Source: an uncultured Pseudothermotoga sp.
GTDB lineage: Bacteria > Thermotogota > Thermotogae > Thermotogales > DSM-5069
DNA length: 64,000 nucleotides
Assembly: GCA_937995655.1 (NCBI GenBank)
Contig: CALKJI010000004.1
Span: 1 to 64,000, forward strand
Direction of reading: 5' to 3'
The position numbers and the translations under genes were made by a program. This document shows positions 51,936-55,751 of the stretch, one piece after another; the stretch's first letter is position 1; every line of letters begins with the position of its first letter. Under the pieces are notes generated by a model. It saw only the letters and a program-made list of their open reading frames with translations, had not been told where the DNA came from and ran no database searches.

Positions 51936-51954
51936 GGGTGGGGCATTCCCACCC
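51936..51954 (-). terminator. Terminator of the exported-protein gene at 51994
   Basis: GGGTGGG and CCCACCC form a 7-bp stem with a 5-base loop. On the minus strand it is followed by CTTATTTTG, a modest T-rich tail. Confidence 0.75.
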
Positions 51955-51993: not shown

Positions 51994-53415
51994 CTAGAAC
52001 GTATATGTACCACTCGCAAGTGTTCTGCTCCATTCCCAAAAGTCATAGCTCACAGATGGTATGCCCCCACACAGATCCTTCAGCCATCCAGCCATCTGAA
52101 CACCACCGGAGGCTGTCAAACCTCCTGTTATTGTGTAACCCACCTGATTTGAACTTCCAACAGATGTCGAAGTTGTTCCCTTTATCCATGGAGTTAATTT
52201 CACAAAGGGTCCTGCAACATAGTAGACGTATGCACAGAGTGTGAAAGGCAAACTTCCTTGAGCCTCAGCACCAATTTTTGCATTGGCTTGGAAATTCACA
52301 CCAGAATAGCTAGTTGAATAACTTGGTGTTTTGTTCCAAGAGCCATTTTGATAGGTTACCTTCAGCGATGTTGTCACACTGAGTGTAGCCCAAGTTTTGA
52401 AACCGATGGAACCATAGATCTTAGCTATGGCTTGGGCATCGAGCTTTGCCTCTAAGTTCAGAACAACAGGCACACAACCTACCCAGAAACTCACAGTTTT
52501 TGACCTTGTAAAAAGGTTCCTGGACCAGTTTTTTTCGATAGTTCCTCCTGATGATACTTCTAAAGAAGGGGTAAGAGAAGGCGTCAATGAAACAACACTC
52601 TCAAATTTTTTGAACTTGTAACTCCAGCTGAACAAGCCCGTTTTCACCCACTCATGTTCCCACAAAAGCGATGTTGTAAAGGTGAGCGTGACGGTAATCA
52701 TTGGTGTCACAGAAAGTGTTTGATAAGTAAATGTGTAAGACAACGATTCACCAGAAGAAACACTAAAATTCCATGAACCAGAAAAATCACTTGCTATATC
52801 GTGTGCAACAGGTTTGGTTAAATGGTCTAAATTCTTTTGGTTCATCATCTCTTTGTTAGAGAAGAACAAGTTGAATGAAGTATAGTCTCTCAGGTTTTGC
52901 AAAACTTCTGTACTCTTCTTTTGGTCTAAGAGATATTTCGGTGTGCCACCGTTTGTTATGATTTTTTCATTTATCAAGACACCCTTTTTGGTTTTTTCAA
53001 GCTTGGCTTCATAGGTTGTACCACCGCCCACGTCTACAAACCACCTGCTTGGTTCGATCTTTGAAAAGAAGGTCGGTTTTATGCCTTCCAAATTGGATCC
53101 CTCTGGTAGTACAATTTCAACCTGTCTTTCTGTCAAAAGTGAGTTTTTTTCTGACTGTAAGAAAGCTGATTCAAAGAGTTTCCCGTCGATCTCATTCTCG
53201 AAGTACTTTGGCATAAGTTTTTCTGCCATTTTCTCGTTCTCAAAACCTTTCCGGGCTATCAAAAATAGATCATCTTGCAGTCTCACAAAACCAGGTACTT
53301 TCATCGTTGTGATGAAGGTGTAACCTCCTGAATCCTTTGTCATCTCTACATCCTTGGCAGTGAATGAGGGTGTTGTACCATAGAGTAGATAGTAATGTTT
53401 AGTTAGTTCAATCAA
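51994..53415 (-). CDS. Exported beta-rich protein, 3' part of a probable frameshifted gene
   Basis: This 473-codon frame begins at a TTG overlapping the stop of 53412-53630. There is no ribosome site. The protein is rich in Ser, Thr and aromatic residues with many predicted beta strands (for example SVSSGESLSYTFTYQTLSV), but has no signal peptide of its own. The signal peptide sits on the adjacent short frame, and its in-frame extension upstream (QSFKNYLIELTKHYYLLYG) reads like continuous protein. I think the two are one exported protein interrupted by a -1 frameshift near an A5 run around 53440-53450. I do not recognise the family. A terminator follows at 51936-51954. Confidence 0.7.
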   Translation of the reverse strand: MIELTKHYYLLYGTTPSFTAKDVEMTKDSGGYTFITTMKVPGFVRLQDDLFLIARKGFENEKMAEKLMPKYFENEIDGKLFESAFLQSEKNSLLTERQVEIVLPEGSNLEGIKPTFFSKIEPSRWFVDVGGGTTYEAKLEKTKKGVLINEKIITNGGTPKYLLDQKKSTEVLQNLRDYTSFNLFFSNKEMMNQKNLDHLTKPVAHDIASDFSGSWNFSVSSGESLSYTFTYQTLSVTPMITVTLTFTTSLLWEHEWVKTGLFSWSYKFKKFESVVSLTPSLTPSLEVSSGGTIEKNWSRNLFTRSKTVSFWVGCVPVVLNLEAKLDAQAIAKIYGSIGFKTWATLSVTTSLKVTYQNGSWNKTPSYSTSYSGVNFQANAKIGAEAQGSLPFTLCAYVYYVAGPFVKLTPWIKGTTSTSVGSSNQVGYTITGGLTASGGVQMAGWLKDLCGGIPSVSYDFWEWSRTLASGTYTF

Positions 53416-53630
53416 GTAATTCTTGAAACTTTGTTGTCTTTTTGTATCTCTTCATAATGGCTTATATACATTTTCGCCAACTCTGACTCTGGTAAGAACT
53501 CCTTTCTTGTTATGATTGCTGAACCATCCTGCATTACTTCGATACGCTCTTGAATATTCCTTTTGAATTGTGTCCCAAAGATTGCAATAGTCAATACTAA
53601 AAGCAAAACCAAGACAATCCTTTTGATCAT
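53412..53630 (-). CDS. Signal-peptide-bearing 5' part of the same exported gene
   Basis: These 72 codons start at ATG 53630 with GGGGGA 6 bases upstream. They encode a clear signal peptide (MIKRIVLVLLLVLTIAIFGTQF) followed by VMQDGSAIITRKEFLPESELAKMY and then HYEEIQKDN. The frame ends at TGA 53412-53414, one base off the following frame. Its domain looks truncated and continues in the other frame. Unless translation shifts, the product would be a short secreted fragment. Confidence 0.65.
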   Translation of the reverse strand: MIKRIVLVLLLVLTIAIFGTQFKRNIQERIEVMQDGSAIITRKEFLPESELAKMYISHYEEIQKDNKVSRIT

Positions 53631-53714
53631 CTTCAATCCCCCTTAGATGGATCAGATCTATAAGGATTGTCTGGCACGCCTATTAAAATCCTATTAGAAA
53701 GACTTGTTCCAAAG

Positions 53715-55751
53715 TCATCTTAGTAAAAGAATCTCTCTTATACCCATTAAATCTAAAGACTTACTCTGTTCCAGATTTATATCAAAAACTTGGATGCCTT
53801 GTTGCGTTGCCACATAAATATAACTTCCACTGACAACGATAGAATGTGCATTCAGGTCAATTTCTTTCAACTTTGAAAGCTCTTCATCGTATTTTACGAG
53901 TTTCTGATCACTCAATACATAGACAAAACCAGAATCAAAATAGATCCTCTTTCCATTGATCAAACTGGTTGACTTAATCTCTGACAGATCATTAGAGCCG
54001 AGTCTGTAAACCTTTGAATCACTCAACAGATAGACCATGTTATCCACTACATACACATCTTTTGCCCTACAGCTGAAGCTGTTTTTCAGAACAGGATTAG
54101 ATGGGTCCAATGCATCGTACTTTTTCAGGCCATCGTTGTCACAAACATAGATGTATTGGCCGAGAATAAAAAGTGAAGAAGGTTCATTCAGTGGGATCGA
54201 CGATCTTTGATCAACGCTCTGATCTGATATTCCTAAAATGAGTAAAGTTGCATCGTTTGTTATACACGCAAAGACTTCTCCTGCTACGATTTTTTGAATA
54301 GGCACCAAAGCATCTACCCAGATGCTGTTGCCGGCAAAGGATGCTGTTGCCACGCCACTCTCACTTATGATAGAAAATTCATTTCCAATGACAAAGATAT
54401 TTTCTTCATAGTAGAAAAAGTCATTACCTGTTATGGTAGAGATCTTTGTATCTGATGCAGGTTCTTGAGTGAAATCGATCTGGTAGATGCCGTCTTCACA
54501 CAGTGCCAGTAGTTTACTATAAGTTGTTTGAACGCCTGTGTAAAAGTTCCAAACAGGCCCTTCGGTTGAGGTATTTCCATCTTTTGCTACAACTTTCCAG
54601 TAATATTTCTTGTTTTTCTCAAGGTTTTGTATCAACATATTTGAACTGGACAGATTTTGTCTTATCAGGGGTGGATTTGAACCTTCCCCAAAATACAGAT
54701 CATAAAAGAGTAGATCTTCATCTGGATCTGATGACACCCAGCTCAAAAGAACATCTGTTTCGAAAACCGATGCATTGTTCTCAGGCGAAGGATTTGTAGG
54801 CATCGATGGGGCACTGTTGGCTAAACCCTTTGTGGTGAAGGTCCATTTGGGTCCAACGGTCAGGTTGGTTCCATCAGATGCTTTTATATACCAACTGTAG
54901 GTTTTGTTTGGTGAAAGATCACTCAGTACAAATCTAGATTGATTGGTATCTGTTTTTTTCACTTCATTCAGATAAACTTCAAAATTCAGTGAATCTCCAT
55001 CGGGGTCGGAACATTCCCATTCCAATGTAACCGGTATGTTCACAGATTGAGCACCATCTGGGGGCGAAATGACCTTTGGAACATATGGTGCGCTGTTTTG
55101 CCCAACTTGAGCAGTTGTGAAAGTTGCTGGGTCACTTTGAATAGTATATTCACCGTCAAAGGCCTTCACAAACCATGTGTATGTCTTTGATGGTTGAAGG
55201 TTGTACTTTGTGTACTGGTAGTTTGTGGTTGTCGCTAAAAAGGAGCCATCCAGATACAGCTCGAACTTCAGAGGATCTTGATCCGGATCGGTGCACCTCC
55301 ATTGAAAGACAACCTGTTTATAATCAACGTTCCCTGAAGATGGAGCAGGCGACAAAAGTTCTGGCTTTTTTGGAGCTCTGTTGATCTTTTTGGTAGAAAA
55401 GCTCAACCAATCTGAATCTGTTTTATTATTTCCATCGTTTGCAATCACCTTCCAGTAATAGGTTTTACTCGGTTCAAGTTCTTCTCTGTGAAAATTGTTG
55501 AGGCCTTTATAGACTAATTTGGTGTTCATCTTGCTTTCTCCAAAGAATACTTCATATGTTAGGGCATCATTCTCAGGATCGGTAAAAGTCCATCTGAGAG
55601 TTGTGTTAGTGCCAACGTCGGTGGCGCCGTTCTCTGGAGTTGATGAAACAAATTGTGGACGGTTGTTGGTGGCCACAGAAGGCCCACTACAGGCTGTCAA
55701 GAATAATATGAAAGTAAGAAATGTAATTGTTAACATGCTGGGGTATTTCAT
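53715..55751 (-). CDS. Lipoprotein with four Fn3-like domains and a C-terminal propeller-like region
   Basis: This 678-residue protein starts MKYPSMLTITFLTF with a lipobox ending in LTAC. Four tandem domains of about 95 residues each carry the PENGATD-type start and a tYYWKVxAxDG core. The last 270 residues have repeated short strands (SLFILGQYIYVCDNDGLKKYD, DVYVVDNMVYLLSDSKVYRL, IVVSGSYIYVATQQGIQVFD) like LVIVD or beta-propeller repeats. Surface binding is a likely role, with no enzyme motif seen. ATG at 55751 follows GGAGGGG. The frame upstream to 56168 is antisense to another gene and is ignored. Confidence 0.85.
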   Translation of the reverse strand: MKYPSMLTITFLTFILFLTACSGPSVATNNRPQFVSSTPENGATDVGTNTTLRWTFTDPENDALTYEVFFGESKMNTKLVYKGLNNFHREELEPSKTYYWKVIANDGNNKTDSDWLSFSTKKINRAPKKPELLSPAPSSGNVDYKQVVFQWRCTDPDQDPLKFELYLDGSFLATTTNYQYTKYNLQPSKTYTWFVKAFDGEYTIQSDPATFTTAQVGQNSAPYVPKVISPPDGAQSVNIPVTLEWECSDPDGDSLNFEVYLNEVKKTDTNQSRFVLSDLSPNKTYSWYIKASDGTNLTVGPKWTFTTKGLANSAPSMPTNPSPENNASVFETDVLLSWVSSDPDEDLLFYDLYFGEGSNPPLIRQNLSSSNMLIQNLEKNKKYYWKVVAKDGNTSTEGPVWNFYTGVQTTYSKLLALCEDGIYQIDFTQEPASDTKISTITGNDFFYYEENIFVIGNEFSIISESGVATASFAGNSIWVDALVPIQKIVAGEVFACITNDATLLILGISDQSVDQRSSIPLNEPSSLFILGQYIYVCDNDGLKKYDALDPSNPVLKNSFSCRAKDVYVVDNMVYLLSDSKVYRLGSNDLSEIKSTSLINGKRIYFDSGFVYVLSDQKLVKYDEELSKLKEIDLNAHSIVVSGSYIYVATQQGIQVFDINLEQSKSLDLMGIREILLLR

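Follow-up and report, generated by a model that had tools for sequence, protein, structure and literature searches.

Programmed −1 frameshift genes include dnaX and those of transposases. A survey of frame transitions (PMC3711429) deals with the programmed frameshifting of dnaX and, in the legend to its Figure 5, regards singleton frameshift genes as likely indel mutations or sequencing errors. The locus described here—a pair of frames that we call ORF A and ORF B—is like the programmed −1 genes in that its frames overlap and are offset by −1; unlike them, it lacks both a slippery heptamer and a marked stimulatory structure, and its layout is not conserved. With the GeneTack-type frameshift pseudogenes, or singleton indel genes, as treated in that survey (PMC3711429), it shares a frame change confined to one genome, intact homologues and the lack of a recoding motif, and it differs from them in nothing essential. 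We read the event as an ordinary one, a recent break of frame in the gene of an exported protein that is unnamed and elsewhere under constraint, with sequencing error as the chief alternative.

The locus lies on the minus strand of a 64,000-nucleotide stretch of DNA from an uncultured, heat-loving Pseudothermotoga sp. (the window). ORF A (53412–53630) encodes the N-terminal piece, 72 amino acids from an ATG at 53630, with a hydrophobic N-terminus that may be a signal peptide or an anchor, and ORF B (51994–53415) encodes the C-terminal piece, 473 amino acids from a nominal TTG start. The TGA stop codon of ORF A (53414–53412) and the TTG of ORF B share bases, in the arrangement TTGA. Upstream of the TTG, a further 12 codons are open in frame (485 versus 473 amino acids), and the two frames overlap over 13 codon positions, anywhere within which a ribosome could in principle switch. 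Both frames and their TGA/TTG overlap, reported in a preliminary description of this DNA, were located in the sequence. The same description held that ORF B has neither a ribosome site nor a signal peptide, and here, too, our observations concur: a Shine-Dalgarno-like AGGGGG (53638–53643, minus strand) was recognized by eye seven bases before the ATG of ORF A, inspection by eye of the bases preceding the ORF B TTG found no such motif, and no signal peptide was seen at the start of ORF B, with a peak 15-residue mean hydropathy of 3.2 at the N-terminus of ORF A versus 0.2 at the ORF B start. Just 3′ of ORF B, a hairpin with a T-rich tail (51936–51954, minus strand) resembles an intrinsic terminator; this is a pattern match only, and five such sites were found in the region versus 3.0 expected from shuffles.

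The genome of the window (G000) was compared with those of three other species from the same genus (G001, G002, and G003) and with more distant relatives. When ORF A and ORF B served as separate queries against 61 genomes (its own and those of relatives), their matches in the relatives lay side by side, in one protein and one frame. ORF A is 66% identical to residues 1–68 of the G001 protein and ORF B 80% identical to residues 64–541; judged from this ordered alignment of both pieces with a single protein, the two-frame layout is more than chance. A wider search found a family match in 23 of 103 Thermotogota genomes, with a full-length unbroken frame at 14 other loci plus one long form, and an intact single-frame gene was present in all three of the other species compared from the genus. 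The eight intact homologues that we read span 533–550 codons at their nominal starts and are 78 to 40% identical to the first sequence in the alignment. In the wider search, G000 itself yielded no second copy, its two matches being ORF A and ORF B, and the two-gene layout at their junction was absent from all relatives examined. Since the same protein is encoded unbroken at 14 other Thermotogota loci, ORF A and ORF B derive from a single ancestral gene. The preliminary proposal, that a one-base frame change divides a single exported protein, is thereby backed by unbroken single-frame homologues, and the comparison with relatives that it had recommended found the protein in one frame and no homologues encoded as two separate genes.

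Where within the junction the frame changes was addressed by alignment and by a switch-point scan. The gap in a five-sequence DNA alignment sits at a run of three T (53426–53428, minus strand), some 12–17 bases downstream of the run of five A (53439–53443, minus strand) named in the preliminary description. In the scan, the switch point V68|F scored best for three of the four references (G001, G003, and G002), and a switch at the A run cost 5 for G001, 4 for G002 and no fewer than 8 for G003. For G009, the best point lay three codons before V68, which fell outside its top five, and the A run scored 1 lower. The T run is thus the best-supported candidate site, favored by a small margin over the A run, which is less likely; the earlier choice of the A run is weakly contradicted.

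Searches of curated collections gave the protein no name. None of ORF A, ORF B, and the eight intact homologues exceeded the curated Pfam cut-off (the best match of ORF A was DOT1, at 16.9 bits versus a cut-off of 23), and there was no NCBIfam match above 0.01; PHROGs returned weak one-member matches only (best E 0.0094), and no solved structure matched at E up to 10. A structural model of the intact G003 homologue, built from a two-row alignment, reached a mean pLDDT of 36.5, too poor for a fold search. Within the titles and abstract openings of the literature searched, we found no mention of the gene or family. The family, as we read it, is specific to Thermotogota and has no name in Pfam or NCBIfam.

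Upstream of ORF A and on the same strand lies a gene for a 678-amino-acid protein with a lipoprotein-like N-terminus and Fn3 and LVIVD repeats (53715–55751), probably the partner of the ORF A/B gene in a two-gene unit. The order of an Fn3/LVIVD lipoprotein-like gene followed by the family gene is common to G000, G001, and G003; in G002, G009, G029, and G037 the neighbor differs or is not of the Fn3/LVIVD kind. In G001, this neighbor (L041 3950–5985, minus strand) is itself split into two frames by a one-base-type change near an A-rich stretch, the G001 copy of the ORF A/B gene being intact; the window and G003 both carry this Fn3 gene unbroken. Other family relatives are fused to further domains. 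A long form in G079 (L172 3–3632) carries the N- and C-terminal parts of the family followed by PKD domains, and in G052 (L171 4575–10001) a match to the C-terminal part lies inside a large Fn3-repeat protein (Fn3 assigned by Pfam). The C-terminal-part matches in G052, G064, and G065 (E 4e-11 to 4e-9) all fall inside open frames of 1666–2003 codons, and Fn3 repeats were noted in the portions read of the G052 protein and of the G064 or G065 protein. Given the export signal, the long beta-rich C-terminal part, the Fn3 lipoprotein neighbor and the relatives that are PKD-fused or Fn3 giants, our best inference is that the protein normally acts at the cell surface or outer envelope.

We next turn to the age of the break. 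In the comparison with G001, dN/dS was 0.063 for ORF B, where dS (1.83) approached saturation, and 0.133 for ORF A; in most other pairs, silent sites were saturated. ORF B contains no further stop in its 473 codons; under simulated unconstrained substitution, the probability of its having none was 0.033 after 0.05 substitutions per site and fell to 0.003 after 0.10. Because ORF B combines a low dN/dS with the lack of any further stop, the break is, as far as these comparisons tell, either recent—young relative to the split from G001, at about 1.8 at silent sites—or absent from living DNA. A dN/dS still at 0.06 is what would be expected of a very recent lesion. Lineage-unique amino-acid changes numbered 34 in G000 versus 23 in G001 for ORF B (chi-square 2.1, not significant) and 8 versus 4 for ORF A (leaning to G000, not significant); counts of unique changes thus give no independent sign of relaxed selection in G000.

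Breaks were also found in other members of the family. The tally comprises 20 resolvable copies, of which 14 are unbroken, one is the long form in G079 and five are broken; excluded beforehand were G055 and G076, which run into a contig end, G078 C4, which matched weakly and in the N-domain alone, and three genomes in which the C-domain lies within larger proteins (G052, G064, and G065). The lesions differ in kind: one base in G000, one stop in the second copy of G007 (L046), frame changes and stops in G008 (L047), a frame change and one stop in G053 (L051), and a large internal loss in the second copy of G010 (L048 5561–6391). The different lesions in these other copies show that the gene can be lost. 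The G010 and G053 assemblies are fragmented (290 and 260 contigs), and assembly faults may explain those two breaks. As a control, a neighboring transporter gene was broken in 0 of 53 cases versus five of 20 for the family (Fisher p 0.001), this control being a single gene, probably more conserved, and chosen after the data had been seen. We treat the excess breakage of the family as a lead only.

Among the explanations for the split frame, we consider it probable that a recent loss-of-function frame change struck a previously intact gene whose exported, beta-rich product belongs to this Thermotogota-specific family. A ribosome would start at ORF A, lose the frame close to the T run and end translation at the TGA (53414–53412), releasing a 72-residue peptide; the predicted truncation falls after 72 of about 541 residues, and the remaining ORF B has no export signal. 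For ORF B, weak reinitiation at the TTG that overlaps the stop is the most that could be expected, and because any such product would have no export signal, the exported protein would not be made. The preliminary description had offered three explanations, of which fresh inactivation fits best, a programmed −1 frameshift finds no support and sequencing error is the main rival. That a one-base sequencing or assembly error produced the split, the gene being intact in the living strain, strikes us as distinctly less likely, if to be taken seriously: G000 is a draft of 14 contigs, the rest of the gene is constrained (dN/dS 0.06, no further stop), and a base error in a draft assembly would look the same as a fresh mutation. 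However, single-base errors were uncommon in the part of the assembly checked, where the 293 matched genes (94,939 codons) held a single clear mid-gene break of frame, and the favored site, with just three T, is no long homopolymer. This survey set 387 kb of G000 (a 2.11-Mb genome) against 1.2 Mb of G001, from which 1098 queries were drawn, 293 of them matched in G000; a tally that counted overlapping and antisense ORFs had flagged 45 and 57 ORFs and was set aside. Five of the 293 were flagged. Of these, the ORF A/B gene alone had its frame clearly broken at mid-gene; two of the others differ within the first 36 residues only (start choice), and two have one in-frame stop each, one of them overlapping opposite-strand ORFs. 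The other, at G000 C4 85657–86265, outside the window, is a shorter counterpart of a 235-codon G001 gene and may be a second real lesion; in all, up to two G000 genes besides the ORF A/B gene may carry lesions. In the reverse direction, 288 of 362 were matched, and the five flagged were the Fn3 gene, an N-terminal difference at C4 143164–144072 that may be real, one extended start, and two that were unclear or noise. Because frame breaks are rare in matched genes and the run at the site is short, we lean toward a real mutation rather than an error.

With a programmed −1 ribosomal frameshift, or with slippage during transcription, the full-length protein would still be made, and the 13-codon overlap with the A run inside it would offer room for this. 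Yet the 72 codons of ORF A contain no in-frame slippery heptamer of the form X XXY YYZ, the RNA just downstream, folded without pseudoknots, is little more stable than its shuffles (z −1.34, with 18 of 200 at least as stable), the gene is in one frame in G001, G002, G003, and others, and the 72-residue product has no plausible use. For want of a heptamer, an outstanding structure and a common two-frame layout, we set programmed frameshifting aside and regard recoding of either kind as very unlikely. Two separate functional genes are less credible still, to the point of being negligible: the TTG overlapping the ORF A stop could permit reinitiation, but the homologues are single genes and ORF B has neither a signal peptide nor a ribosome site. 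Long repeats are typical of slipped-strand switching. Phase variation, or another reversible switching of a surface protein, would accord with the five broken copies among 20 versus none among 53 for the transporter control, a comparison picked post hoc, and with the one-base change that breaks the adjacent Fn3 gene in G001. The runs at the site are short, however (three T and five A, the latter the longest mononucleotide run in ORF A), and the lesions of the other copies differ in kind and place, those of G008 and G053 being multiple and seemingly irreversible; we therefore hold switching to be improbable, and a fresh loss of function remains our preferred reading.

As a single case, the locus is one more broken gene, and its use lies in annotation, in that ORF B should not be taken for a separate gene starting at the TTG. 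A wider, more speculative scenario, which we would not expect to prove correct, is that loss of this envelope family and of its Fn3 lipoprotein neighbor has been selected repeatedly, perhaps by phage or during growth in culture, with intact and broken alleles alternating between lineages; the window would then hold an event caught very early, and G001 a case in which the partner gene was hit. Were the repeated breakage indeed selected, the locus would gain in importance, as a pointer to a phage receptor or another exposed structure in Thermotogota.
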